Source: Thioalkalivibrio sp. XN279 (lineage in GTDB: Bacteria > Pseudomonadota > Gammaproteobacteria > Steroidobacterales > XN24). From it: DNA of 64,000 nt. Where the stretch lies: assembly GCF_011089885.1 (NCBI RefSeq), contig NZ_JAANBD010000027.1, positions 310,001 through 374,000 of the forward strand, in the 5' to 3' direction. Below, in pieces: positions 1 through 46,744 of this stretch. The notes beneath the pieces are model-generated. The model was given only the letters and a program-made list of their open reading frames with translations. It did no database searches and was not told the DNA's origin. Each line of letters begins with the position of its first letter. The first letter of the stretch is position 1. Position numbers and translations under genes: made by a program.

Positions 1-1094
1 AGCACGCCGGAGCCATAGCCGGAGGATGCGGTCACCGCGCAGGCCAGGCCGTCTGCGTCGAGCGCTGAGATGTGCACCGTGGAGGGCGCCGACCCACCGG
101 TGGTCCCGCCGCCGGACGCGGCCCAGCGCAACAGGGCCTCCAGCGCGGCGTCCGCCTCCGGGCCGGTGTGCGTGGACAGCGCCTGCATGCGCTCGAACAC
201 GTCCCGCTGCGCGGCGGCCAGTTGCGCCACGGTGGCGGCGTTCCACTCGCCGCGGGGCTCGGCGCCCATGCGCGACAGCATCGCTGCCAGGGCCGCACCG
301 CCGATGGCGGGCGGCGGCGGCACGGCCACTTCCCAGTCGTCCACTGCGCAATGCAAAGGCTCGCGCCGCGCCACGCGGTAAGCCTGCCGGTCCGCCGCGC
401 CCATCAGGCCGCCGCCGGCGTCGACGCAAGCGGCAATCTCCGCGCCCAGGCGGCCGGTGTAGAACGCCGCCGGGCCCTCGCGGCCGAGCTCCACGAGGGT
501 CTCAGCCAGCCCGGGCACCCGCATCGGGGCGCCGACCGGGAGTAACTCCCCGGCGGCATCGTGGATGACTGCCCCGCTCTCGCGCTGCCAGCCGAAGATC
601 TCGCGGTGGCTGTAGCGCAGCCAGGTACCCGACGCGGCGCCGAGCGGAAAGCCCCGGCGTGCCCGCGCCGCCGCCGGGGCCAGGAGGTCCGGCCATTCCA
701 GCCGGCCCCAGCCGCCCGCAACCTCGCCGAGCGCTGCCACCGCGCCGCCTACGCCCACTGCACCGTAGCCGACAATGGTCCGCATGCCGCCGCCGTAATC
801 GAGGGTAACGGGCCGCCCGGCGGCGCCGAAGCGTTCCGGCGCGCGACCGAGGCCCGGCATGGCGATACCGCCATCGATCACGCAGGGGTGTTCGCCAGGT
901 CGCCAGACGGAAACGAAGGCCCCGGCGTCGAGACCGACAATGCCGATTTCCGTGGCCAGGGCCGCCACGGTGGCGGCAACGGCTGCATCCACCGCGTTAC
1001 CGCCCTGCTCGGCCACCTCGGCTCCGGCGCGGACCGCGATCTCCGAAGGACCTGCAATGCCAACGGCAATCCGCGCTCCGCCCCTCCGACTCAC
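1..1094 (-). CDS. Gamma-glutamyltransferase-like protein, cut by the window edge
   Basis: An open frame of at least 364 codons runs off the left edge without a stop. The N-terminal half carries the family signature of a long QGGNAVDAAVAA-type helix (residues about 24-35). The likely autocatalytic nucleophile is Thr339 in a T-V-H-I-S context, matching the TTHxS site where gamma-glutamyltransferases cleave themselves into large and small subunits. The rest of the small subunit lies outside the window. I chose the GTG start at 1094 because it overlaps the upstream stop as GTGA and no ATG fits. There is no signal peptide, so unlike classical periplasmic Ggt this is predicted to be cytoplasmic. 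The family hydrolyses or transfers gamma-glutamyl groups; the substrate here is unknown. Sure of the superfamily, not of the reaction. Confidence 0.8.
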   Translation of the reverse strand, partial: MSRRGGARIAVGIAGPSEIAVRAGAEVAEQGGNAVDAAVAATVAALATEIGIVGLDAGAFVSVWRPGEHPCVIDGGIAMPGLGRAPERFGAAGRPVTLDYGGGMRTIVGYGAVGVGGAVAALGEVAGGWGRLEWPDLLAPAAARARRGFPLGAASGTWLRYSHREIFGWQRESGAVIHDAAGELLPVGAPMRVPGLAETLVELGREGPAAFYTGRLGAEIAACVDAGGGLMGAADRQAYRVARREPLHCAVDDWEVAVPPPPAIGGAALAAMLSRMGAEPRGEWNAATVAQLAAAQRDVFERMQALSTHTGPEADAALEALLRWAASGGGTTGGSAPSTVHISALDADGLACAVTASSGYGSGV

Positions 1095-1330
1095 TCTTCC
1101 ATCCCGCCCGCGAGGTACTCCATGCAAGCGGAGAAACTGGTCAGCAGGCACCGGTCCGAGGCGGGAATATCCAGGCCCGTCTCGCGACACAGGGCGCTGA
1201 AAAAACGCTCGAGGTCGAGGTCGAACTGCTCGGCCAGCGGCCGCTCCGGGTCGATCGGGCGATCGCCGATGGGACCTGCGGCCTGCGACAAGGCCCTCAG
1301 CACTGCGGTTTCGAGGTCGCGCTCGTTCAT
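1091..1330 (-). CDS. Acyl-carrier-protein-like small protein without the phosphopantetheine serine
   Basis: A 79-residue acidic helical protein. The pattern PLAEQ...FDLD...ALCRETGLDIP...CMEYL follows a family of short proteobacterial acyl carrier proteins. In that family the segment after helix 1 normally reads like LDSMDF, where Ser takes the 4'-phosphopantetheine arm. Here the run goes FDLDLERFF, as if three residues including the Ser were deleted in frame. If so the protein cannot carry an acyl group. A GGAGGAGG ribosome site lies just upstream; ATG codons at 1333 and 1330 are both possible, and 1330 has the better spacing. The stop overlaps the start of the gamma-glutamyltransferase-like gene (GTGA), so the two are translationally coupled. 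The ACP relationship rests on remembered family sequences, not a search. Confidence 0.6.
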   Translation of the reverse strand: MNERDLETAVLRALSQAAGPIGDRPIDPERPLAEQFDLDLERFFSALCRETGLDIPASDRCLLTSFSACMEYLAGGMEE

Positions 1331-1474
1331 CATCCTCCTCCTCCGGCGCATCCGGCTGCGGACTCGCCCGGGACGACTATGCTTGCAGGGTGCCACCCGT
1401 GGACACGCGGCTGCTTGATTCAGGTCAACGCCTGCCGCGACACAGTTTGCCATGTTGGGCACGGGTGCGGACGG

Positions 1475-1502
1475 TTGTAAATTAGCATTTGCTAAATTAC
1501 AA
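1475..1502. promoter_or_regulatory. AT-rich palindrome, probable MarR-type operator
   Basis: The inner element TTAGCA-TT-TGCTAA (1482-1495) is a perfect 6-bp inverted repeat with a 2-bp spacer. Outer arms TTGTAA and TTACAA extend the symmetry to 28 nt with two mismatched pairs. It sits in the divergent gap between the ACP-like gene and the MMPL transporter, in very GC-rich surroundings. The core resembles the SlyA/MarR-class consensus TTAGCAAGCTAA but has a wider spacer. No MarR gene is adjacent, so the regulator is unknown. Confidence 0.55.
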
Positions 1503-1569
1503 TTCCTGGCACTTGACGACACGCCCGACCGGGGCCTGCGTCATCCGCAGCCATGATGGAGAAGCGCTC

Positions 1570-4131
1570 TTGAAACAGGCACTGCTGGAACTGGCCCTGC
1601 ATCGACCGCGCGCGGTCTACGTCTTCGCCCTGCTGCTGACCGTCGTGCTGGGACTGCAGCTCCCCCGCATACAGATCGACACGGATCCGGAGAACATGCT
1701 TCCGGCGGAGCAGGCCGACCGGGTCTTCCACAACGAGGTCAAGGCAGAGATGGCGCTGCACGACGCCATCGTCGTCGGCCTCGTTGAGCCCGACCACCCG
1801 GACGGGATTTACAACCCGGCCGCGCTCGGCGCGCTGCACCGCGCCACCGAGCAGATCCTCGAGCTCGAGGGCGTGGTCGGGCGCGACCTCATGGCCCTCT
1901 CGGTGGCGGACAACATCGACCAGGCCGGTCCGGGCACGGTGCGCTTCGAATGGCTGATGCCCGCACCGCCCGAGACCCGCGAGGCCGCACTTGCGATCCG
2001 CTCGCACGTGGAGCGCCTGCCGCTGCTCAAGGACACACTGGCCTCCGGCGACGGCAAGGCCGCGGCCATCTACGTGCCGATTCGCGACAAGAACGAAAGC
2101 CACCGGCTGTCGCAGGAAATTGCAGACATCACCGCAGCCGCGTCGGCGGAGTTCGGCGCCACGGGTGACTGGCATATCACCGGCCTTCCGGTGGCCGAGG
2201 ACACCTTCGGCTACGAGATGTTCGTGCAGATGGGCATCTCCGCGCCCCTGGCCGGCCTCGCCATCTTCCTGCTGCTGTGGTTCTTCTTCCGCAGCATCCC
2301 GTTGATCGTGGCGCCGATGATCGTCGCCATGGTCACGGTCATCGCCACCATGGGGCTGCTGATCGGCATGGGCTTCACGGTGCACATCATGAGCTCCATG
2401 ATCCCGATCTTCCTCATGCCGATCGCGGTGGTGGACTCGGTGCACATCATGTCCGAGTTCGCCGACCGCTACCGGCCCGGACGACACCAGAACGACACCA
2501 TCCGCGAGGTGGTCGGCCACCTGTTCAAGCCGATGCTGTTCACCTCGGTGACCTCGGCCGTCGGCTTCGCTTCGCTGGCGCTCACGCCGATCCCGCCGGT
2601 GCAGGTGTTCGGCGCCTACGTCGCTTTCGGCATCCTGCTGGCCTTCCTGCTCACCATCGTCTTCATTCCGGCCTGGGTGTCGCGCATGAAGCCCGCCAGC
2701 CTGGAGAAGATGCAGGCCGCCCTTCATTCCACCGAGGGCGACTCCCTGCTGGCGCGTGTCCTGCGCCGCGGCGGCCACGGGGCCCTCAAGCACGGCAAGC
2801 TGGTGCTGGTCGGCTTCGCCGCGGTGTTCGCCATCAGCGTCGCCGGCATCACGCAGATCCAGATCAACGACAACCCCACGCGCTGGTTCAAGGCGGACCA
2901 TCGCATCCGCGTCGCGGACCAGGTGCTCAACGAGCATTTCGCCGGCACCTACGACGCCTGGATAGTGCTCGACCACGTGCAACGGCCGGACGGCGCGCTG
3001 CTGCAGCAGCGCGTGGCCGAGACGCTCGCGGCGGCGCCCGCCGAGGTACGGGAGTTCTGGCGCGGGATCGCGCCGGCAAGCAGCGAGACGCTGGACGGCG
3101 AGCGCCTCACCGCCGTGATCTCGGCGCTCGAGGACCGGCTGTTCGAGGCCGACGGCGACGCGCTCGACGCCCTCGATGCGCTGGTGCGCGACGTCGAGTC
3201 CCTGGCCAGCGAGTCCAACTACTTCCAGCAGCCGGAGGTGCTGCGCTGGGTCGCGGCGCTGCAGGCCGACCTCGCGGCCAGCGGGCTGGTGGGCAAGAGC
3301 AACGCCCTGCCGGACCTGGTGAAGACCGTGAACCGCGAGCTGCGGGGCGGGGACCCGGCCGACTTCAGCATCCCGGACAGCGTCCCCGGCGTGGCCCAGG
3401 CGCTGCTGCAGTTCCAGTCCTCGCACCGGCCGCAGGACCTGTGGCACATGGTCGCGCCCGACTTCAGCCGCGCCGTGGTGTGGCTGCAGCTCACCAGCGG
3501 CGACAACCAGGACATGACCGCCGTGTTGCGCCACGTCGAGGCCTACCTGGAAGAGCACCCGGTCCCGGCAGGCATGGCCCTGCAGTGGGCCGGCAAGACC
3601 TATCTCAACGTGGTGTGGCAGGACGCCATGGTGAAAGGCATGGTGGGCAGCCTGGCGGGCGCCTTCGTCGCCGTGCTGATCATGATGGTGGTGCTGTTCC
3701 GCTCCATCGGCTACGGGCTGCTGGCGATGCTGCCGCTGACCATCACCATCACCTTCATCTACGGCCTCATCGGCTGGGTCGGCAAGGACTACGACATGCC
3801 GATCGCGGTGCTGTCGGCGCTCACGCTCGGCCTGTCGATCGACTTCGCCATCCACTTCATCGAGCGCTCGCGCGAGGCGCTGGCGCAGCAGGGCGACTTC
3901 CGCGCCGCCATGGCCGAAGTGTTCGAGGAGCCGGCACGCGCCATCAGCCGCAACGCCATCGTGATCGCCGTCGGCTTCACGCCGTTGCTCCTGGCGCCGC
4001 TGGTACCCTATATCACCGTCGGCGTGTTCCTGGCGTCGATCATGGCCGTGTCGGCCGTTGTCACGCTGGTGCTGCTGCCGCCCGCCATGCGCCCCTTCGT
4101 GGAGCGGCGCAGTGCGCCGGCCGCGAGCTGA
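1570..4131 (+). CDS. MMPL/RND-family transporter (COG1033 type)
   Basis: An 853-residue inner-membrane protein with RND duplication. Each half has one N-terminal helix, a large periplasmic loop (roughly residues 45-210 and 440-680) and a block of about five helices. Charged residues inside the membrane blocks (VDSVHIM in the first half, LSIDFAIHF in the second) are where the family places its proton relay. The TTG at 1570 is preferred because GGAG lies 8 nt upstream and the product begins MKQALLELALHRP, as is usual here. Upstream in-frame codons would start inside the operator palindrome. Relatives move lipids, hopanoids or other hydrophobic molecules rather than working as tripartite drug pumps. 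The next two genes encode a LolA-like and a barrel protein, suggesting a trans-envelope lipid route (inference). Confidence 0.85.
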   Translation: MKQALLELALHRPRAVYVFALLLTVVLGLQLPRIQIDTDPENMLPAEQADRVFHNEVKAEMALHDAIVVGLVEPDHPDGIYNPAALGALHRATEQILELEGVVGRDLMALSVADNIDQAGPGTVRFEWLMPAPPETREAALAIRSHVERLPLLKDTLASGDGKAAAIYVPIRDKNESHRLSQEIADITAAASAEFGATGDWHITGLPVAEDTFGYEMFVQMGISAPLAGLAIFLLLWFFFRSIPLIVAPMIVAMVTVIATMGLLIGMGFTVHIMSSMIPIFLMPIAVVDSVHIMSEFADRYRPGRHQNDTIREVVGHLFKPMLFTSVTSAVGFASLALTPIPPVQVFGAYVAFGILLAFLLTIVFIPAWVSRMKPASLEKMQAALHSTEGDSLLARVLRRGGHGALKHGKLVLVGFAAVFAISVAGITQIQINDNPTRWFKADHRIRVADQVLNEHFAGTYDAWIVLDHVQRPDGALLQQRVAETLAAAPAEVREFWRGIAPASSETLDGERLTAVISALEDRLFEADGDALDALDALVRDVESLASESNYFQQPEVLRWVAALQADLAASGLVGKSNALPDLVKTVNRELRGGDPADFSIPDSVPGVAQALLQFQSSHRPQDLWHMVAPDFSRAVVWLQLTSGDNQDMTAVLRHVEAYLEEHPVPAGMALQWAGKTYLNVVWQDAMVKGMVGSLAGAFVAVLIMMVVLFRSIGYGLLAMLPLTITITFIYGLIGWVGKDYDMPIAVLSALTLGLSIDFAIHFIERSREALAQQGDFRAAMAEVFEEPARAISRNAIVIAVGFTPLLLAPLVPYITVGVFLASIMAVSAVVTLVLLPPAMRPFVERRSAPAAS

Positions 4132-4163
4132 ACCTGAGGCCCTGAGCCAAGGAGAAACGAGTC

Positions 4164-4970
4164 ATGAAAACCCGCCTGCTTACCAGCATCACGCTGCTTG
4201 CCCTCGCGCTCGGCAATAGCGCTGCCGCCGAGCCGCTGACCGACGTCGACGAGATCGTGGCGCGCGCCAACCTGGCGGCCTATTACGGCGGCGATGACGG
4301 GCGCAGCGAGGCCCGCATGGCCATCGAGGACAACCAGGGCCGCAAGCAGCTGCGCCAGTTCACCATCCTGCGCCGGGACCATGCCGACGGCGGCGACCAG
4401 GACTTCATGGTGTTCTTCTCGCGTCCTTCAGACGTGCGCGGCACGGTGTTTCTCGTCGCCAAGCATGTCGACCGCGACGACGACCGCTGGCTGTACCTGC
4501 CCGGCCTCGACCTGGTGCGTCGCATCAGCGCCGGCGACAAGCGCACCAGTTTCGTCGGCTCGCACTTTTTCTACGAGGATGTCTCCGGCCGCAACCCGGC
4601 CGAGGACGAGCACCGCCTGGTCGAGACCACCGCCGAGCACTACGTGCTGGAAAGCACGCCGAAGGACCCGGCCAGCGTGGAGTTCACGCGTTACGTCACG
4701 CGCATCGACCGCCAGACCTTCCTGCCGATGAAGACCGAGTACTACGACAGCCGCGATCGCGTGTACCGCCTCATGGAAGTGCTCGACGTGGAAGAGATCG
4801 GCGGCTATCCGACGGTGACGCGCTCGCGCATGTCCGAGCCGCTCGACGGCGGCTCCACGCTGATGGAGTTCCGCTACACCGAGTACGACGTCGGCCTGCC
4901 GGCAGACATCTTCTCCGAGCGCTACCTGCGCACCCCGCCGACGGACTGGCTGCGGCGCGGCGGAGAATGA
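4164..4970 (+). CDS. Outer-membrane lipoprotein-sorting (LolA-like) periplasmic protein
   Basis: A 268-residue protein with a signal peptide ending near Ala22 (LALALGNSAAA) and no lipobox Cys, so a soluble periplasmic protein is predicted. The body matches the LolA-like 'outer membrane lipoprotein-sorting protein' family that accompanies COG1033 transporters. Features are a DFMVFFSRPSDVRG strand, a WLYLPGLDLVRRI strand, an SFVGSHFFYEDV segment and a C-terminal YTEYDVGLPADIFSERYL tail. Members adopt a half-barrel able to hold an acyl chain. It follows the transporter by 32 nt and precedes the barrel gene by 4 nt, so one operon is likely. It may shuttle a lipid between inner- and outer-membrane partners (inference). 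It is not the general LolA, which lacks this partner arrangement. Confidence 0.8.
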   Translation: MKTRLLTSITLLALALGNSAAAEPLTDVDEIVARANLAAYYGGDDGRSEARMAIEDNQGRKQLRQFTILRRDHADGGDQDFMVFFSRPSDVRGTVFLVAKHVDRDDDRWLYLPGLDLVRRISAGDKRTSFVGSHFFYEDVSGRNPAEDEHRLVETTAEHYVLESTPKDPASVEFTRYVTRIDRQTFLPMKTEYYDSRDRVYRLMEVLDVEEIGGYPTVTRSRMSEPLDGGSTLMEFRYTEYDVGLPADIFSERYLRTPPTDWLRRGGE

Positions 4971-4974
4971 GGCC

Positions 4975-6288
4975 GTGTCCAGGGCCCTGACCTTCGCCGC
5001 CGCCTGGGCGCTGCTGGCCGTCATGCCGGCAACCGCCTGGGCGGCGGAGTCCGGGGGCGAGCGGGAGGACGACCCCTTCGCCGGCTTCGACGAGGAATGG
5101 GAAGATCCCTGGGCGACGGAGGACCAGGGCCTGCGCTGGAGCGGGTTCGTGGAAGGCGCGCTGGGCGCACGCGACCAGAGTGTCCCGGGGCTGGACCGCC
5201 TCACCCTGGGAGAACTCCGCATCCGCGCCGAAACACGCTACGACCACGGCGATTTCCAGGTCGACTTCAAGGGCGACCTGGCCTGGGACGAGGTGCGCGA
5301 GTCGCTCGACCCGAAGCTGCGCGAGCTGGCGCTGAGTTTCCGTCCCTTCTCCAGCGTCGACGCCAAGCTCGGCCGGCAGGTACTGACCTGGGGCACCGGC
5401 GACCTGCTGTTCCTCAACGACCTGTTCCCGAAGGACTTCATTTCCTTCTTCGCAGGCCGCGACGAGGATTACCTCAAGTTACCGTCCGACACTGCCCGTT
5501 TCAGCATCTTCACCGACCTCGTCAACCTCGACCTCGCCTGGACGCCGCGTTTCCGTCCTGACAATTACCTCTACGGCGAGCGTTTCTCCTTCTGGAACCC
5601 GGCGACCGGCGCCGTGATCGCGCCGCAGCCGGCGCGACGCGCCGACCGGCCCGACACCGGCGAGCTCGCGCTGCGGCTGTTCCGCACCGTGGAGGCCGTG
5701 GAGTACGCGGCCTACGGCTACGTCGGTCGCTGGAAGCAACCGCTGGGCGTGGACGCCGAAGGCATGCCGCGTTTCCCGCGCCTGCGCAGCATCGGCGCCA
5801 GCATGCGCCGTCCCTTCTACCGCGGCCTGTTGAACGCCGAGTTCGCCTGGTACGAGTCGCGCGACGACCGTGACGGCGACGACCCCGCGACGCCGAACTC
5901 GGAGCTGCGTGTCCTGCTCGGCTACGAGCAGGAGCTGGTGCGCAACCTGACGCTCGGCACGCAGTTCTACGCCGAACGCATCCAGCACCACGATCGCCTG
6001 CTCGCCAACTCGCCCGACCCGGAACATGAGCGCGAGCGCTGGCGCACCGTCGCCACGGCGCGCGTCACGCACCGCGCGCTGCAGGACACGCTCACGACCT
6101 CGGTTTTCGTGTTCGTCTCGCCCACCGAGAATGATTACTACCTGCGCCCCTCGGTGTCATGGCGACGGGACGACCAGTGGCTGTTCGCCGGCGGCCTGAA
6201 CCTGTTCGGCGGCAGCGACGACCACACTTTCTTCGGCCAGCTCGAAGACAACACCAACGCCTGGGTGAGGGTGCGTTATCACTACTGA
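4975..6288 (+). CDS. Probable outer-membrane beta-barrel protein of the transporter operon
   Basis: A 437-residue protein starting at GTG 4975, with GGAG and GAGG just upstream and only 4 nt after the previous stop. A signal peptide ends near Ala24 (ATAWAA). An acidic linker (residues about 26-45) leads into alternating hydrophobic and polar strands, and the last residues are VRVRYHY, an aromatic C-terminus as expected of a Bam substrate. Segments such as LGRQVLTWGTGDLLFLNDLFP resemble the DUF1302 group and other uncharacterised barrels found beside COG1033 transporters. With the preceding genes it would complete an inner-membrane, periplasm, outer-membrane path. Barrel prediction is by eye; cargo and direction are unknown. 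Confidence 0.7.
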   Translation: MSRALTFAAAWALLAVMPATAWAAESGGEREDDPFAGFDEEWEDPWATEDQGLRWSGFVEGALGARDQSVPGLDRLTLGELRIRAETRYDHGDFQVDFKGDLAWDEVRESLDPKLRELALSFRPFSSVDAKLGRQVLTWGTGDLLFLNDLFPKDFISFFAGRDEDYLKLPSDTARFSIFTDLVNLDLAWTPRFRPDNYLYGERFSFWNPATGAVIAPQPARRADRPDTGELALRLFRTVEAVEYAAYGYVGRWKQPLGVDAEGMPRFPRLRSIGASMRRPFYRGLLNAEFAWYESRDDRDGDDPATPNSELRVLLGYEQELVRNLTLGTQFYAERIQHHDRLLANSPDPEHERERWRTVATARVTHRALQDTLTTSVFVFVSPTENDYYLRPSVSWRRDDQWLFAGGLNLFGGSDDHTFFGQLEDNTNAWVRVRYHY

Positions 6289-6295
6289 GGGGACG

Positions 6296-7825
6296 ATGGT
6301 CGCGGGATTGCTGCAGCCGGCCGCCTATCCCGGCGGCGTGCAGGAAGTCGAACTTGCAGAGACGCACATCTCCTGGGTCTTCCTGGCCGGCGACTACGCC
6401 TACAAGTTCAAGAAACCGCTGGACCTGGGCTTCCTCGATTTCCGCGACCCCGCACGACGGCTGCATTACTGCCGCGAGGAACTGCGCCTCAACGGCCGCC
6501 TCGCGCCGGACATTTACCTCGACCTGGCCGGGGCCGTGTCCACGGCCGAGGGATGGCGCGTGGTGCCGTGGCGCGAGGGCGCCGAGCCGGCCGTGCGCAT
6601 GCGGCGCTTCCCGCACGAGGCCCGGCTGGACCGGCTGCTGGCGGCCGGGCGGCTGGATGAAGCCGCACTCGAGCCCTTCGCGCGCGCGCTGGCAAAGTTC
6701 CAGCAGGCATTGTCCCCGGCACCCGCCGACGGGGCGCTGGGCACTGCGACGGCAGTGGCGCGCCCTGCCCGCGCCAACTTCGAGGCCATGTCGCGGCAGG
6801 GGCTACCCGCAGAGACGGCGAATAGGCTCGAGCAACTGGAGCACTGGACCGGCGCGCAGGCGGTCGCCCGGGCCACGGCGTTCGAGGCGCGCCTCGCCGG
6901 GGGGTTCGTGCGCGAAGGCCACGGCGACCTGCACCTCGGCAACCTCGTCATGCTCGACGGTCGCATCGTGGCTTTCGACGGCATCGAGTTCGACCCGGCG
7001 TTGCGCTGGATCGACCTGCAGAGCGAAGTGGCGTTCCTGCTCATGGACCTGGAATCGCGCGGACGGCCCGACCTCGGCTGGCGCTTCTACGACGCCTGGC
7101 TGCAGGCGAGCGGCGACTACGAGGGACTCGGCGTGCTGCGCTGGTACCTGGTCTACCGCCACCTGGTGCGCGCCAAGATCGACGGCATCCGGCGCACGCA
7201 GGCGGGCCTCGGCGAGGAGGAAATACAACAGCTGGCGGAACGCCAGGCGCGCCATATCGACCTGGCCGCTGCTCATGCCGCGCCAGGCGCCCCGCGCCTG
7301 CTGCTCATGTACGGCTACTCCGGCTCCGGCAAGAGCCGCCTGGCGCAGCGCCTGGCCCCGCGCCTGCCTGCGGTCGTGGTGCGCTCGGACCTCGAGCGCA
7401 AGCGCCTGCACGGACTCGATCCGCACAGCTCCGCCGCGGCGGCAGTCGGGACGGGGCTGTATGATGCGGCCGCCTCCGCGCAAACCTACGCACGGCTCGA
7501 GGCCGTGGCGCGCACGGCGCTCGCTGCTGGATGGAACATCGTGGTGGACGCGGCGTTTCTCGAGAGCGAGCGGCGCGAAGCCTTTCTCCAGCTTGGGCTG
7601 GACGCGGGCGCCCGCCCCGTCCTGCTCCACTGCGACGCGCCGGCCGAGATATTGCGCGCGCGCGTCGCTGCAAGGCGCGGCGACCCTTCGGACGCCGGCA
7701 CTGAGGTGCTGGAGGCACAGCTGGCACGCCCCGCAGAGACCGGACCGCTCGAGTCGCGCTACCGCGTCCCCGTGGACACGCGGGAAGACCCGGATCTCAG
7801 CGTACTGGTGGCAGCCCTGCGCTGA
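6296..7825 (+). CDS. Bifunctional aminoglycoside-phosphotransferase-like / P-loop kinase protein
   Basis: A 509-residue two-domain protein. Residues about 1-325 form an APH-fold kinase of the COG2187 type, with catalytic loop HGDLHLGN (209-216) and metal-binding Asp228 in AFDGIEF. Residues about 334-509 form a COG0645-type kinase with Walker A GYSGSGKS (340-347). The fusion is widespread but its substrate is not established; it is not a proven resistance enzyme. It begins 7 nt after the barrel gene and is probably co-transcribed. Its 3' end overlaps the convergent membrane protein gene by 29 nt. Both catalytic sites look intact. Confidence 0.85.
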   Translation: MVAGLLQPAAYPGGVQEVELAETHISWVFLAGDYAYKFKKPLDLGFLDFRDPARRLHYCREELRLNGRLAPDIYLDLAGAVSTAEGWRVVPWREGAEPAVRMRRFPHEARLDRLLAAGRLDEAALEPFARALAKFQQALSPAPADGALGTATAVARPARANFEAMSRQGLPAETANRLEQLEHWTGAQAVARATAFEARLAGGFVREGHGDLHLGNLVMLDGRIVAFDGIEFDPALRWIDLQSEVAFLLMDLESRGRPDLGWRFYDAWLQASGDYEGLGVLRWYLVYRHLVRAKIDGIRRTQAGLGEEEIQQLAERQARHIDLAAAHAAPGAPRLLLMYGYSGSGKSRLAQRLAPRLPAVVVRSDLERKRLHGLDPHSSAAAAVGTGLYDAAASAQTYARLEAVARTALAAGWNIVVDAAFLESERREAFLQLGLDAGARPVLLHCDAPAEILRARVAARRGDPSDAGTEVLEAQLARPAETGPLESRYRVPVDTREDPDLSVLVAALR

Positions 7826-11723: not shown

Positions 11724-12344
11724 ATGAACACCTCCGCGGGCACCCGGGACCCCGACCTCACCCGGGAACGCATCCTCGAGGCCGCGCACAAGCTGTTCGT
11801 GCGCAAGGGCTTCGCCGCCGTCAGCATGCGCGACCTGGCGCATGAATCCGGCGTCACCAAGAGTCTCATCCACCACCATTTCGGCAGCAAGGAAGCCCTC
11901 TGGGAGCTGGTCAAGGAACAGGCCATCGCGGCCTACGCCGAAGGCCAGGTGGCGCAGCTGAAGGCTGCCGAGGCGCCGGATGCCGAGCTGTTGCGCGACA
12001 GCATCGCCCGCTATTTCCATTTCCTGCAGCACAACCCGGAAGTGGTGCGGCTGTTCGCCTGGACCCATCTCGACGCCGACCAGAGCTGCGGCCAGCTGGA
12101 CGCGGAACTGGTGCGCCTGGGCGCAGAGCGCGTGCGCCAGGCGCAGCAGGGCGGCCTGCTGCGCGCCGACGTCAACCCGAGCCACGTGGTGACCATGTTC
12201 GTCAACGGCTGCACGCACTGGTTCCAGGCCCGGGCACACCACTCGCAATGGCCCGGCGTGGGCAGCGACGCCGAATTCCTGGACGACTTTCTCAAGATCG
12301 TCATGGAAGGCCTGTTGCCGCGCCCGGCGGAGGAGGACGCGTGA
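11724..12344 (+). CDS. TetR/AcrR-family transcriptional regulator
   Basis: A 206-residue regulator. The N-terminal helix-turn-helix (residues about 15-60) includes RILEAAHKLFVRKGFAAVS and the recognition helix region VTKSLIHHHFGSKEALW. The C-terminal ligand domain is all-helical. It is first in an operon with an RND adaptor and pump whose starts overlap the preceding stops, so it probably represses the pump through the palindrome just upstream. The inducing ligand cannot be told from sequence. Confidence 0.92.
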   Translation: MNTSAGTRDPDLTRERILEAAHKLFVRKGFAAVSMRDLAHESGVTKSLIHHHFGSKEALWELVKEQAIAAYAEGQVAQLKAAEAPDAELLRDSIARYFHFLQHNPEVVRLFAWTHLDADQSCGQLDAELVRLGAERVRQAQQGGLLRADVNPSHVVTMFVNGCTHWFQARAHHSQWPGVGSDAEFLDDFLKIVMEGLLPRPAEEDA

Positions 12345-13444
12345 ACGCGGCCGCCGCGCGCCGTCGCCACGCCTTCATAGCGGTGTCGGCGCTCTTGCTG
12401 GGCGGCCTGCTCACGGCCTGCGACCCAGCTAAAGACGCCCCGGGCGTGGCGAGCACGGCGGAACATCGCAGCGCGGTGCGCGTGGCCAGCGTCGAACGCG
12501 TCGAGGGCGGCCGCAGCCTGCGCCTGCCGGGCGTGCTGCGGGCCACGCAACGGGCTCAACCCGCCTTCCTGCAACCCGGCTACCTCGCCGAACGCCTGGT
12601 GGCGCGCGGCGACCGCGTCAGCGCCGGACAGCCGCTCGCCACGCTCACCAACCCGGCGCTGGCCCCGGCGTTGAGCGCGGCGCAGGCGCGGGTGCGTGAG
12701 CTCGACGAGCGCCTGGTGCAGCTGGAGGCCGAGTACCAGCGCATGCTGGAACTGAGCCAGCGCGGGCTGGCTTCTGACGACCAGCTCGACCGGGCGCTGG
12801 CGGCGCGCAACTCGACCCGCGCGGCGCGCGAGCAGGCTGTCGCCGGTGTCGCGGAGGCCCGTGAGCAGCTCGGCGAAGCGACCTTGCGCGCACCCTTCGA
12901 CGCCGTGGTCGGCGACCTGCTGGTCGAGCCGGGCGATTTCGTGCAGCCCGGGCAGCCGGTGCTGGTGCTCTCCGGCTCGGGCGCGCTGGAAGTCGAAGTG
13001 AAGTTGCCCGAAGGCCTGTCGGCCGCACTCACCGCCGGAATGCCGGCGCGGGTCAGGGCGCTGGCCTCGGGCGGTGAAGTCGATGCCACTGTGCGGGAGC
13101 TGGGCGTCGCGCGCGACGGACGGCTGGCGCCGGCGGTGCTGGAGCTGGACCCCGCTGCGGCGGCCGCCGCGCAGTGGATCCCTGGACTCTCTGTGCAGGT
13201 CAGTCTCGCGCTTGCGGCGGAACCTGCATTGAGCGTGCCCTTGAGTGCCGTGGTCGACCCCGGCACCGGGCGTACCCGTGTCTATCGCGTGCGCGACGGC
13301 CGCGCCGTCCTCACCCCGGTGCAGGTGGGCCGACCGCTCGGGGCTCGAGTCGAAGTGCGCGGTGAGCTGGCCGCCGGCGACCAGGTCGTCGTCGCCGGCC
13401 ACCAGCAGCTGCTCGACGGCGACCTGCTGAGGGTCCTGCCCTGA
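12341..13444 (+). CDS. RND efflux periplasmic adaptor lipoprotein
   Basis: A 367-residue membrane-fusion protein starting at GTG 12341, overlapping the TetR stop as GTGA with GGAGGA upstream. The signal peptide ends in lipobox LTAC (Cys27), so it is anchored as a lipoprotein. Order: barrel and lipoyl half-motif (residues about 45-100), a helical hairpin (about 105-185, rich in Ala, Glu and Arg), the second lipoyl half (LRAPFDAVVGDLLVEPGDFV), then beta-barrel and membrane-proximal domains. It links the inner-membrane RND pump to an outer-membrane channel. No channel gene is present here, so a TolC-type protein encoded elsewhere must be used. Confidence 0.93.
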   Translation: MNAAAARRRHAFIAVSALLLGGLLTACDPAKDAPGVASTAEHRSAVRVASVERVEGGRSLRLPGVLRATQRAQPAFLQPGYLAERLVARGDRVSAGQPLATLTNPALAPALSAAQARVRELDERLVQLEAEYQRMLELSQRGLASDDQLDRALAARNSTRAAREQAVAGVAEAREQLGEATLRAPFDAVVGDLLVEPGDFVQPGQPVLVLSGSGALEVEVKLPEGLSAALTAGMPARVRALASGGEVDATVRELGVARDGRLAPAVLELDPAAAAAAQWIPGLSVQVSLALAAEPALSVPLSAVVDPGTGRTRVYRVRDGRAVLTPVQVGRPLGARVEVRGELAAGDQVVVAGHQQLLDGDLLRVLP

Positions 13445-16400
13445 ACCTGATCCTCGCCAGCATCGAGCGCCGCCGCCTGGTGCTCGCCATCGTCGTGACG
13501 CTGTCGCTGATCGGCCTGGCGTCGTGGCTGGGCATGAACCGGCAGGAGGACCCGTTCTTCCCCTATCGCTACGCCCAGGTGCTGGTGAGCTGGCCCGGCG
13601 CCGACGCCGACCAGGTAGAACGCCTGGTGCTCAACCCGCTGCAGGAGGAAATCGCCCAGGTCGACGAGGTGAACGAGCTGCGCGGCACGGCGCGCCTGGG
13701 CTTCGCGCAGATCATCGTCGGCATGCACCAGCACGTGTATGACACGGACGAGGTGTGGCAGCGGGTACGCGTGGCCATCGAGCGCGCAGAGCGCAAGTTC
13801 CCGCCGGGTGCGGGGCGGGCGGAACTGTTCGACCGCATGATGGACACGGAAGGCATCGTGCTGGTGGTGACCGGGTCCGAGGACCTGCTGGAGCTCACCG
13901 AGACGGCGCGGGCCCTGCGTCGCGACCTGTTTCGCGTGCCTGACATCGCCCGCATCGAGCTGCTTGCCGATCCCGGCGAGCAACTCGTGCTTAACATCGA
14001 CCCGGCGGCCGCCCAGGCCTGGGGGCTGGACGCGCAGACCCTGGGCGCCCAGCTGGCGGCGCGCAACGTGACCATGCCGGGCGGGGTCCTGAGCCGCGAT
14101 GGCCGCTCGTTCGTGCTGCGGCCACGCGCCGACTTCAGCAGCCTGGAAGAGCTCGCGGCGACACCGGTGCAACTGCCCTCCGGCGACCTGGTGCCGCTGG
14201 GCGAGGTGGCGAACATCGTGCTCGAACCCGCGGAGCCGCCGACCGAGCGCATGTGGTTCAACGGTCGGCCGGCCGTGGGCCTGGGGATCGTCATTCCCGA
14301 GAACCGCCTCAACGCGGTGCGGTTCGGCGCAAGCGTGCGCGCGGTGGTGGACGAAGTGCGCGCGGACTACGCCCCGCTGGAGATCGACGAGATGTTCTAC
14401 CAGCCGCAGTGGGTGGAGGACCGGCTCGCCGAGCTGGCGCGCTCGCTGCTCATGGGCGTGGTGGTCGTGGTGTTCGTCCTGCTCGCCTTCATGGGTCCGC
14501 GCCTCGGCCTGACGGTGGCGGGCCTGCTGCCACTGGTGACGCTGTCCTCGCTGGCCCTGTACGCCATGGGCGGCGGCGTGCTGCACCAGATCGCCGTGGC
14601 CGGGCTGGTGATCGCGCTCGGCATGCTGGTAGACAACGCCATCGTCATGGTCGAGAACCTGCAATGGCACCTCGACCAGGGCCGCGGACGGCGCGAGGCC
14701 GCCATCATGTCCGTGCGCGAGCTGTCCGGCCCGCTCGCAGCAGCCACCGGCACGACGTTGGCCGCGTTCCTGCCGCTGCTCCTGTCGCAGGGCAACACCG
14801 CCGATTTCACGCGCGGAATTCCGATCCTGGTGATGTTGACGCTGGTGGTGAGCTACCTGTACGCGGTGTTCGCCACGCCGGTGATGGCCACGCTGACGCT
14901 GAAGCCGCGCAGCGGCGGCTCCGGCGGACGCATCCAGTCGCTGGGCGCTGCGCTGGGCCGTCTCGCGGTGCGCCGTCCCTGGACCGTGGTCACCGTGGCC
15001 GCCCTGCTGGTCGCCGGCGGCGCGGCCCTGAGCGGCATGCTGCCGCGCGACTTCTTTCCCAGCACGGATCGCAACCAGCTCATTGTCGACCTGCGTTTTC
15101 CCGAGGGCACGGAACTCGAGCACACCGCCCTGCAGGCCAGCGCCCTGGCGGACCAGCTGGCGACCCAGCCGGCCGTCACGGACGTGCACGTTTTCGCCGG
15201 CGCCAGCGGCCCGCGCTTCTACTACAACCTGGTGAAGATCCCCAACTCGCCGCACCTCGGGCGCATTGTCGCCATCACCCGGAGCGAGCGTGACCTGCCC
15301 CAGCTCATGCACTGGGTGCGCGACTACGCCCAGGCGCGCCTGCCGGATGCGCACGTGACCGCCAGCCGCCTTGGCCAGGGCCCGCCGCTCGATGCGCCGG
15401 TCGAGATCCGGGTATTCGCGGAGGAGCCGGAGACCCTCGTGGCCGCGGCCGAGGACATCATGCGCCTGCTGCGCGCCACGCCCGGCGCCATGGACGTGCG
15501 TCATACCCTCGGCACGGGCCTGCCGACGGTGCGCCTCGACATCGACGATGCGGCGGCGGCACGCCTCGGACTCTCACGCAGCGACGTCGCGCGCGCCCTC
15601 GCGGGCGCCACCCTCGGCACCGAGTTCTCGACCTGGCGCGTCCGCCGCGAGCCGTTGCCGATGCTCATCCGGGCGCCGGAGGGCCGCGACTTCCCGGTCG
15701 AGGGCATCGAAGGCCTGCCCCTGCCCCTGCCGCAGGGCGGCTCGGTGCCGCTCGGACACGTGGCCCGCACCAGCCTGGAATGGAAGCCGGCCGTGATCCG
15801 GCAGTGGGACATGCAACGCATGACCGCCGTGCTCGCGGAGACGGCCGAGGGCTATACCTACGACCAGGTGCTGACGGATTTCGAGCCGCGCCTGGCGGCG
15901 CTGGCGCTGCCGCCGGGAGTGCGCATCGTCTACGGCGGCGCCGCGGAGGAAGCGGGCGAGGCCAACTCGGCGCTGTTCCATACGCTGCCGCTCGGCGTGC
16001 TGATGCTGCTGGTGTTCCTGCTCCACCAGTTCAATTCCTTCCGGCTGATGCTGATCGTGCTGGTCACGGTGCCGCTGGCGGTGGTCGGCGTGACGCCGGG
16101 CCTGCTGCTCTCCAACCAGCCCTTCAGCTTCACGGCGATCCTCGGCGTGGTGGCGCTGGTCGGCATCGTGGTGAACAACGCCATCGTGCTCATCGACCTG
16201 GTGAAGCGGCTGGAACTGGAGTACGCGGATTCAGCCGAGGCCGTGATTGCCGCCGTGGCGCGCCGCACGCGACCGATCCTCATGACCACCGCCACCACCA
16301 TCGCCGGCCTGCTGCCCCTGACCTTCACGCGCTCCACGCTGTGGCCGCCGCTGGCGTGGGCGATCATTTCGGGCTTGCTGGCGTCGACCCTGCTGACGCT

Positions 16401-16482
16401 GGTCGTGATCCCGGCGCTGTATCACCTGCTGGTCGGCCGCAAGCGCGCCGCGCCGGCGGCGGAGCCTCAGGGCAGCGCGTAA
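13441..16482 (+). CDS. RND efflux pump inner-membrane subunit (AcrB-like)
   Basis: A polytopic pump of about 1013 residues with the RND layout: TM1, porter domain, TM2-6, TM7, second porter domain, TM8-12. In TM4 the proton-relay motif reads LVDNAIVMVEN: the first Asp of the AcrB pair is kept and the second is Asn, as in many non-AcrB RND pumps. The start is odd. No ATG, GTG or TTG precedes TM1. A CTG at 13441 overlapping the adaptor stop (CTGA), with GAGGG upstream, would give the family N-terminus MNLILASIERRRL. The first conventional start is GTG 13480, 13 codons later, already in TM1. I give the CTG form with modest confidence in the exact start. Substrates unknown. Confidence 0.9.
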   Translation: MNLILASIERRRLVLAIVVTLSLIGLASWLGMNRQEDPFFPYRYAQVLVSWPGADADQVERLVLNPLQEEIAQVDEVNELRGTARLGFAQIIVGMHQHVYDTDEVWQRVRVAIERAERKFPPGAGRAELFDRMMDTEGIVLVVTGSEDLLELTETARALRRDLFRVPDIARIELLADPGEQLVLNIDPAAAQAWGLDAQTLGAQLAARNVTMPGGVLSRDGRSFVLRPRADFSSLEELAATPVQLPSGDLVPLGEVANIVLEPAEPPTERMWFNGRPAVGLGIVIPENRLNAVRFGASVRAVVDEVRADYAPLEIDEMFYQPQWVEDRLAELARSLLMGVVVVVFVLLAFMGPRLGLTVAGLLPLVTLSSLALYAMGGGVLHQIAVAGLVIALGMLVDNAIVMVENLQWHLDQGRGRREAAIMSVRELSGPLAAATGTTLAAFLPLLLSQGNTADFTRGIPILVMLTLVVSYLYAVFATPVMATLTLKPRSGGSGGRIQSLGAALGRLAVRRPWTVVTVAALLVAGGAALSGMLPRDFFPSTDRNQLIVDLRFPEGTELEHTALQASALADQLATQPAVTDVHVFAGASGPRFYYNLVKIPNSPHLGRIVAITRSERDLPQLMHWVRDYAQARLPDAHVTASRLGQGPPLDAPVEIRVFAEEPETLVAAAEDIMRLLRATPGAMDVRHTLGTGLPTVRLDIDDAAAARLGLSRSDVARALAGATLGTEFSTWRVRREPLPMLIRAPEGRDFPVEGIEGLPLPLPQGGSVPLGHVARTSLEWKPAVIRQWDMQRMTAVLAETAEGYTYDQVLTDFEPRLAALALPPGVRIVYGGAAEEAGEANSALFHTLPLGVLMLLVFLLHQFNSFRLMLIVLVTVPLAVVGVTPGLLLSNQPFSFTAILGVVALVGIVVNNAIVLIDLVKRLELEYADSAEAVIAAVARRTRPILMTTATTIAGLLPLTFTRSTLWPPLAWAIISGLLASTLLTLVVIPALYHLLVGRKRAAPAAEPQGSA

Positions 16483-45826: not shown

Positions 45827-46744
45827 TCAGGCGGCCGCGACGCGCTGGGCGCCGGGCCGGCGGACAATGGACACGAGCAGCGGCCACGGGCTCGCGGGCA
45901 GTTGCTCGACGACTTCCTGGCGCAGTCCGGCTCGCACGCACCACGTCGCGAGCCGGTCCTGGTCCAGCGGGATCGCGGCGCCGGACGAGGCAGGCGTGGC
46001 GCCTGCGCCGGTGAGGTACTCGACCAGCAGCAGGCGACCGCCGGGACGCAGGACGCGAGCGGCCTCGCGCAACACCTCGTCCGGCTGCTCCGCCTGGTAC
46101 AGCACCTGGTCGATGGTGACGGTGTCGAAACTCGCGTCGGCGAAGCGCAGCTGGTACATGTTGCCCTGGCGCACGGAGAGGTGGTCGAGGCCGGCCGCGT
46201 GCAGGTTGCTGCGCGCCAGCACCAGCATTTCGCGCGAGATGTCGATGCCGACCGCCGAATCTGCATTCACGCCCAGCAGCCGCAGCATGCGGCCGGTGCC
46301 GGTGCCGATGTCCAGCAGCTCGCCCAGGTGCTCCCCCGCCATCAGGTCGATGATGCGCGCGTCCACGCCGGCCGGGGTCGGCGTCGCTGCATCCATCGCG
46401 CGCCCGCGCAACTGCTCCGCGCGGCGCGCCAGCACCCGGTCGAGGCGCTCGCGGTCGAGCCGCAGCGCGGCATCGCTTGCCGGCACCAGCCGCAACAGCG
46501 CGCGCGCCACTTCCGCGCCGGGGCCGCCGAGCGGGACGCGGTAGTACACCCAGTTCTGCTCGCGAAAGCGGTCCAGCAATCCCGCCCCGCACAGCACCTT
46601 GAGGTGCCGCGAGACGCGCGGCTGGCTCTGCCCCAGCACCTCGGTAAGCTCGGTCACGGTAAGCTCGCCGCGGGCGCAGAGCGCAAGCAGGCGCAACCGG
46701 CTGGGATCGGCCAGGGCCTTGAAGGCCTCCAGCACCGGCTGCAT
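45827..46744 (-). CDS. ArsR-family regulator fused to a SAM-dependent methyltransferase
   Basis: A 305-residue protein. An N-terminal ArsR winged helix (residues about 1-90: ALADPSRLRLLALCARGELTVTELTEVLGQSQPRVSRHLKVL) is followed by a class I methyltransferase domain (about 135-285) with SAM loop LLDIGTGTGRMLRLLG. The ArsR part shows no obvious metal Cys motif. It heads the metF-metH operon, so it probably represses methionine synthesis in response to SAM or SAH, as SahR-type ArsR proteins do. The methyltransferase domain may act as ligand sensor. Start is either 46744 or 46768 (eight more residues); neither has a clear ribosome site. Confidence 0.88.
   Translation of the reverse strand: MQPVLEAFKALADPSRLRLLALCARGELTVTELTEVLGQSQPRVSRHLKVLCGAGLLDRFREQNWVYYRVPLGGPGAEVARALLRLVPASDAALRLDRERLDRVLARRAEQLRGRAMDAATPTPAGVDARIIDLMAGEHLGELLDIGTGTGRMLRLLGVNADSAVGIDISREMLVLARSNLHAAGLDHLSVRQGNMYQLRFADASFDTVTIDQVLYQAEQPDEVLREAARVLRPGGRLLLVEYLTGAGATPASSGAAIPLDQDRLATWCVRAGLRQEVVEQLPASPWPLLVSIVRRPGAQRVAAA

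Follow-up and report, generated by a model that had tools for sequence, protein, structure and literature searches.

What does a bacterium move across its envelope when genes for a pump in its inner membrane, a carrier in its periplasm and a barrel in its outer membrane stand side by side? This question is raised by a module of three same-strand neighbouring genes at positions 1570-6288 of a 64,000-nucleotide stretch of Thioalkalivibrio sp. XN279 DNA (contig NZ_JAANBD010000027.1, positions 310,001 to 374,000; the whole stretch is hereafter the window). We propose, with a probability of roughly 0.6, that the module uses the proton gradient to export a hydrophobic molecule across the envelope and that its ortholog group takes part in the bacterial response to persulfides (reactive sulfur species). 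The strongest lead, which the initial annotation of the window had missed, is an apparent link to reactive-sulfur genes together with a sequence resembling a BigR-type operator. The features concerned are the following.

1478..1499, no strand assigned: 22-bp inverted repeat TAAATTAGCATTTGCTAAATTA, 9 of 11 pairs matching; candidate operator of a BigR/SqrR-type ArsR
1570..4131, plus strand: MMPL/HAE3-like RND inner-membrane protein (pump), 853 aa, TTG start, 12 transmembrane segments (TM), no cysteine
4164..4970, plus strand: LolA-like periplasmic carrier (PF17131), 268 aa, ATG start, no cysteine
4975..6288, plus strand: outer-membrane beta-barrel protein, 437 aa, GTG start, 18 long strands, DUF1302-related, no cysteine

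The list of open reading frames gives intergenic gaps of 32 and 4 bp, in agreement with the short spacing noted in the initial annotation, and its three-gene module of MMPL transporter, LolA-like protein and barrel was borne out by the coordinates, Pfam matches, predicted folds and recurrent gene order. By eye, the TTG start of the pump gene is closely preceded by a Shine-Dalgarno-like GGAGAAG, and the LolA-like protein has a signal-like N-terminus; the barrel protein ends in an aromatic residue. The pump matched the Pfam family MMPL (PF03176, 106.8 bits), and its closest curated subfamily was HAE3 (TIGR00921, 185.4 bits, E 1.4e-54), at a score under the cut-off of 351.9. Hydropathy averaged over 84 aligned pumps, that of the window included, displayed 12 TM and two large loops, and two acidic residues, D289 at the end of TM4 and D758 in TM10, are conserved in these 84 sequences. 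Two other long frames overlie the pump gene, one antisense (1492-3855, minus strand, 787 aa) and one overlapping (2277-4145, plus strand, 622 aa), and both are most likely by-products of the high G+C content.

The second protein matched PF17131 (LolA_like) at 190.6 bits and DUF1329 at 37.9 bits. Its AlphaFold2 model, built from an alignment of 52 sequences, reached a predicted local distance difference test score (pLDDT) of 84.5, and the best match of this model in the PDB was Porphyromonas gingivalis LolA3 (9tp6; Z 24.9, root-mean-square deviation 2.5, 226 residues aligned), followed by the DUF1329 protein 4z48 (Z 24.0) and by 3bk5 (Z 22.6), with classical LolA chains at Z of about 9-12. The modelling thus predicts a LolA fold. 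Such a fold, and the database name 'outer membrane lipoprotein-sorting protein', could point to a specialised Lol-like path for sorting lipoproteins, but we consider this very improbable because the genes encoded alongside specify neither LolB nor LolCDE but an RND pump and a porin-like barrel. Membership of the classical Lol system was not adopted either.

For the third protein, DUF1302 scored 18.7 bits in the window copy, below the cut-off of 23.2; of 59 aligned barrel orthologs, 42 matched it at E ≤ 0.01. A sequence search of the PDB returned no relative (best E 0.19), and the protein was placed by fold comparison only. The initial annotation had set a barrel in this protein beforehand as its own test, and AlphaFold2 predicted one (alignment of 59, pLDDT 86.7), with 18 long strands counted from the element list. 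The model resembled AlgE most closely (4azl; Z 22.0, root-mean-square deviation 3.9, 307 residues aligned), with OprD/Occ porins at Z 20.7-21.9, which suggests a barrel of AlgE/OprD-like fold.

To place the module in a wider setting, genome contigs were scanned with a profile of the LolA-like alignment, and the best 80 of at least 518 confirmed relatives were taken as ortholog loci; being the best-scoring relatives, with some near-duplicates (L075/L076), they are not independent draws. By tblastn, the order pump-carrier-barrel recurred in these 80 loci wherever the available DNA extends. The only loci without a barrel match were L063 and L067, and the only one without a pump match was L035, where the available DNA ends less than 200 bp from the carrier gene on the side concerned; some further loci are interrupted by a contig end. 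The three genes also stand together on plasmid pILYOP01 of Ilyobacter polytropus (Fusobacteriota; L114/L165), in the order carrier-barrel-pump and with identities of 48, 37 and 44%. The shared order in the ortholog loci, and the reordered grouping in a fusobacterium, argue that the three genes are not together by chance. Within the order of the host, a carrier ortholog of at least 62% identity was present in 6 of 59 genomes, and a sample of the class yielded a barrel ortholog in 7 of 185 genomes (the own genome is counted in both figures) and a diverged match in one more.

Several further loci carry features of their own. Genes for SelD, YedF and DUF3343 proteins adjoin the Ilyobacter polytropus module and may link it to selenium in addition to sulfur. 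On the 23.9-kb plasmid p1 of Pseudoalteromonas rhizosphaerae (NZ_CP118497.1; L115), a related pair of MMPL and LolA-like genes directly adjoins GmtY, the recombinase of the gamma-mobile-trio, with GmtX farther along, so that a module of this kind may travel as cargo of a mobile element. Single frames of 1079 and 1077 aa in two genomes of the same order (L025 in G014, L027 in G026) fuse the MMPL and LolA-like parts, in the manner of TOL_3187 of Thalassolituus oleivorans. Matches of equal identity to the module are filed under Simkaniaceae and Woeseiaceae records in L075 and L076, which probably reflects a binning error in the public data.

The flanking DNA of the 80 ortholog loci was then searched by tblastn with one or two representatives of each of five sulfur markers. 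At least one marker was found in 73 of the 80 loci and lay within 3 kb in 71; where at least 3 kb was available on both sides, 48 of 56 loci had one. A YgaP-type membrane protein was present in 56 loci, a BigR/SqrR-like dithiol ArsR in 55, sulfide:quinone reductase (SQR) in 21, persulfide dioxygenase (PDO) in 10 and rhodanese in 9. By contrast, the same census detected no marker over threshold in any of 15 paralogous LolA-like loci of the same order, hand-chosen from 34 paralog matches, one per genome; 13 of the 15 have an MMPL match, and one of the 15, L143, has a single ArsR below threshold. In 18 of the 21 loci that have SQR, its gene precedes the pump gene in the same orientation at a distance of 0-16 bp; in the remaining three it lies 2.1-2.2 kb downstream. 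PDO stands immediately before the pump in L129 and L130, and L131 displays a divergent ArsR followed by SQR-pump-LolA-barrel-YgaP (L129 and L131 apparently represent the same genomes as L038 and L076). ArsR, SQR and YgaP are arranged around the same three genes in several different ways.

In a clustering of the neighbouring frames, an ArsR regulator ranked first; rhodanese, a flavoprotein, a TM protein of YgaP type and a metallo-beta-lactamase-fold protein recurred as well. Pfam identified 9 of the 45 clusters printed. The flavoprotein of L073 is a sulfide-quinone reductase (PDB 3sz0 at 1.5e-158). Against the dioxygenase portion of the Blh model, whose cut-off is 625, the metallo-beta-lactamase-fold protein scored 373.6 bits in L106 and 394.1 in the own-genome copy, and its PDB matches were 9g8t, 4efz and 4ysk, the last of which we take to be a persulfide dioxygenase. 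BigR-type and SqrR-type regulons include SQR and YgaP-like genes. The nearest NCBIfam equivalog of the ArsR protein is BigR, at 94.4 bits for L071 and 107.7 for the own-genome copy, below the cut-off of 155, and the PDB chains nearest to the latter are HlyU (4k2e), BigR (3pqj) and the ArsR 6o8k, presumably SqrR. Both residues of the cysteine pair are present in 54 of 58 ArsR sequences, and a dithiol pair of this kind is termed persulfide-sensing (PMC7315123; here and below, the cited papers are drawn upon as excerpts).

Upstream of the pump gene, the inverted repeat lies 71-92 bp before the start codon. It was matched in none of 100 dinucleotide shuffles of the window, and its 14-base core has a single occurrence in 3.1 Mb. 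An initial automated palindrome search, which was strict, yielded sites in some ortholog loci only, and from these sites and that of the window we read the pattern AWTTAGN6CTAAWT. Within 300 bp upstream of the pump, this pattern was found with at most two mismatches in 41 of 73 usable loci, compared with 5.9% of shuffles, a count that is partly circular because the consensus was derived in part from the same loci; at most one mismatch was seen in 14 of the 73, compared with 0.6% of shuffles. The loci L047, L079 and L105, which are without a marker, also carry the pattern. Cleaner tests were provided by the regions upstream of arsR genes and by further loci of the class sample. Of nine regions upstream of BigR-like arsR genes, seven carried the pattern with at most two mismatches (TGTAAATTAGGGAAATCTTAATTACA in L161 is one case), against 2.5% of shuffles, and of the other two regions one has a site with three mismatches and one has no site within three; six of the nine come from class-sample genomes without a barrel ortholog. 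Among six further ortholog neighbourhoods of the class sample, three clearly have markers: ArsR and SQR in L147, SQR, ArsR and YgaP in L149, and ArsR, YgaP and a weak rhodanese in L152. By eye, a repeat is also kept in two relatives of the genus, with the same spacing in G002 and with a longer spacer in G001. On this sequence evidence, we propose that the repeat at 1478-1499 is the operator of a BigR/SqrR-type ArsR repressor.

Sulfur genes could nevertheless gather around a general efflux or envelope module through clustering in stress islands, with no functional tie to it. Such an explanation accommodates the window, which has no adjacent marker, as well as some other loci that also have none; it fits the fact that the module is not tracked by PDO, and non-sulfur neighbours recur too, namely GGDEF, universal-stress, exonuclease/endonuclease/phosphatase-family and DUF5610 proteins. 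We judge it unlikely, given the paralog loci devoid of markers, the recurrence of ArsR, SQR and YgaP in several arrangements around the same genes, and the repeat retained before the pump in the window, G002 and G001.

Under the proposed export in the persulfide response, a BigR/SqrR-type ArsR with two sensing cysteines would occupy the upstream repeat and would be released as persulfides rise. The RND protein would draw its cargo from the inner membrane, or from the outer face of that membrane, at the expense of the proton gradient, a step that we infer from the RND family and from the conserved aspartates of TM4 and TM10. To judge by the predicted folds, the LolA-type protein would ferry the shielded cargo through the periplasm, and the 18-stranded barrel would discharge it at the outer membrane or outside it. 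The initial annotation had already suggested that an RND motor drives a route for a lipid or other hydrophobic compound; the hydrophobic route is partly supported, by the anatomy, the conservation and the experimentally studied relative AmeABCD (PMC6394551), but nothing found here singles out a lipid.

That SQR precedes the pump points to the SQR product, or to a hydrophobic product that follows from it, as the possible cargo; in our view the likeliest candidate is hydrophobic zero-valent sulfur (S8 or long or organic polysulfanes) from the oxidation of sulfide or persulfide. Over the aligned regions, the carrier is free of cysteine in 89 of 89 orthologs, compared with 6 of 18 paralogs, and the pump in 45 of 86 orthologs, compared with 1 of 17 paralogs; 80 of 81 barrel matches are cysteine-free, a figure with no paralog control. 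The depletion is suggestive of a thiol-reactive cargo, although lineage differences could contribute. A machine dedicated to elemental or polysulfane sulfur, in which SQR would form hydrophobic zero-valent sulfur at the membrane and the RND pump would extract it and pass it to a cysteine-free carrier and a cysteine-free 18-strand barrel for delivery to the outside, under a persulfide-sensing repressor, is a narrower idea that we put forward tentatively, as possible rather than probable.

The main alternative cargo is a lipid or another hydrophobe exported for protection. In one form of this alternative, the module would export a lipid or hopanoid-like compound and so remodel the outer membrane into a barrier, and the persulfide regulator would merely be its switch, with sulfur not the cargo. 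The pump lends itself to this idea: the HpnN model is among its curated relatives (82.8 bits, cut-off 751.85), its best sequence matches in the PDB are 5khn and the HpnN chain 6wu0, and Pfam also returned matches to Patched and sterol-sensing domains. LolA folds, moreover, bind acyl chains in the Lol system. Yet a lipid-biosynthesis family was found in none of the nine neighbour clusters identified by Pfam, and an SQR immediately before the pump in 18 loci is a better fit to a sulfur product, so that we regard a lipid exporter as doubtful.

Transport might also run in the opposite direction, with the module importing hydrophobic matter such as elemental sulfur, alkanes or fatty esters to the periplasm or the inner membrane. 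Among the RND relatives, those of the NPC1 type move sterol inward. In Thalassolituus oleivorans, TOL_3187 rises 42-fold, and TOL_3188 is seen only, on the n-C28 alkane (PMC6304351). Set against this, repression by a persulfide sensor beside SQR and PDO suits removal over uptake, and export is favoured by the data on AmeABCD, a proposed exporter of hydrophobic compounds in Castellaniella defragrans: deletion mutants tolerate monoterpenes less well and accumulate more Nile Red (PMC6394551). Import therefore appears to us quite unlikely.

Beyond the partial circularity of the operator count, several observations weigh against export in the persulfide response. Seven of the 80 loci have no marker over threshold (L045, L047, L068, L079, L092, L105 and L109, the last with a divergent, sub-threshold ArsR-like frame), and of the six class-sample neighbourhoods L148 has a weak ArsR only, and two have no marker (L150, with less than 200 bp upstream, and L151). 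SQR, PDO, rhodanese and YgaP are unmatched in the whole window, and its only ArsR match lies 40 kb from the module; this stretch (46496-46723, minus strand) is 40.6% identical to the BigR-like protein of the same genome, sits within a 472-aa frame that has no Pfam match at 1e-5. The own genome gave no match to this type of SQR in a search without a positive control. It does encode a BigR-like ArsR divergent from PDO on the contig of the window, about 56 kb from the module, and in both congeners, too, the ArsR-PDO pair shares a contig with the module, but the gap between these two genes in the own genome has no better site than one with two mismatches. Genome-wide, the pattern with at most one mismatch is not enriched (2 sites, against 3 for a reversed control). 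In the class sample, PDO (E ≤ 1e-60) occurs in 26 of 185 genomes, but the own genome is the only one of the 7 module carriers to have it, which gives no genome-wide link and runs counter to the expectation that carriers are rich in PDO; BigR-like ArsR (E ≤ 1e-20) occurs in 3 of 7 carriers and in 19 of the 185 genomes overall. Finally, the regulon link leaves the cargo unfixed and is compatible with import, and the requirement of PP_0765/0766 for growth of Pseudomonas putida on Tween 20 could mean uptake (PMC10866462).

The genes around the module in the window add a few observations. The gene that starts 7 bp past the barrel gene (6296-7825, plus strand) encodes 509 aa with an AAA_33 domain at the C-terminus and may be co-transcribed with the module; frames of the window appear in none of the printed neighbour clusters of the ortholog loci. 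On the other side, a small acidic protein (1091-1342, minus strand), acyl-carrier-protein-like by eye and without a Pfam match, is encoded between a transpeptidase gene and the inverted repeat, and its start region looks conserved by eye in the congeners L127 and L128. The transpeptidase is a 550-aa gamma-glutamyltranspeptidase frame (PF01019, 240 bits) at positions 1 to about 1190 of the window, minus strand, extending beyond it (L124:9539-11191); its gene is directed away from the module, with the one small gene in between. Enzymes of this family act on glutathione, and the neighbour may or may not have a bearing on persulfides. A few kb from the module, at 11724-16482 on the plus strand, a TetR regulator, an HlyD-type adaptor and an AcrB-type RND pump look like an ordinary efflux operon.

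If the proposal is correct, it would assign a physiological substrate class to a set of LolA-like and DUF1302-like proteins that so far lack a known function, and the conserved pump-carrier-barrel set with its persulfide-type repressor would make the passage of zero-valent sulfur through the Gram-negative envelope testable. In the open-licence literature we found no description of a persulfide-regulon branch of this kind or of the three families joined with sulfide or persulfide genes.

Among known systems, the initial annotation had drawn a parallel to Lol, Mla and Lpt. This stands as an analogy only: all are trans-envelope routes for hydrophobic cargo, and the LolA fold is common to Lol, but the barrel is AlgE/OprD-like in fold, and Lol uses another motor and another outer-membrane partner than the module. 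Lpt and Mla likewise differ in both. A word-level check of two papers on LolA3 revealed no mention of RND. HpnN shares the HAE3/MMPL architecture, but the pump scores far under its cut-off (82.8 bits) and was not assigned to this hopanoid transporter, and HpnN works without associated periplasmic or outer-membrane proteins (PMC6394551). The regulons of BigR, SqrR, HlyU and YgaV resemble the ortholog neighbourhoods in their dithiol ArsR repressor and persulfide dioxygenase (PMC7315123); the words MMPL and RND are absent from the main text of the Acinetobacter baumannii BigR paper.

The initial annotation had also stated that no substrate is firmly defined for such a combination, which needs qualification, in that relatives are tied, in the excerpts of their reports, to monoterpenes (AmeABCD, PMC6394551), to growth on a long-chain alkane (TOL_3187/3188, PMC6304351) and to the use of Tween 20 (PP_0765/0766, PMC10866462). 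TOL_3187 and TOL_3188 combine MMPL and LolA-like domains with an adjacent porin-like protein, but the two domains form one chain, and induction is by the n-C28 alkane (PMC6304351). In Pseudomonas putida, the DUF1302 barrel and DUF1329 protein of PP_0765/PP_0766 are functionally linked to PP_2018/PP_2019, a periplasmic protein and a transporter termed a multidrug efflux transporter; the pump gene there has a distant locus number, and the link concerns growth on Tween 20 (PMC10866462). A close likeness in parts is that to AmeABCD, which co-encodes an HAE3 RND pump, a periplasmic protein of the LolA superfamily (DUF1329) and a DUF1302 outer-membrane protein (PMC6394551). It differs in a fourth, second-periplasmic protein, AmeC (COG4447), and in its place in a monoterpene island, whereas the present ortholog group stands with persulfide-response genes; the LolA-type protein of the window, in addition, matches mainly PF17131 rather than DUF1329. 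AmeC is not encoded beside the module, whose flanks hold the small protein with the transpeptidase and the AAA_33 protein (the rest of the genome was not searched for it), and an identity of the module with AmeABCD itself was not adopted. An architecture of RND, LolA-type and DUF1302-type proteins was thus already known from AmeABCD (PMC6394551), and what is new here is its sulfur-gene context.

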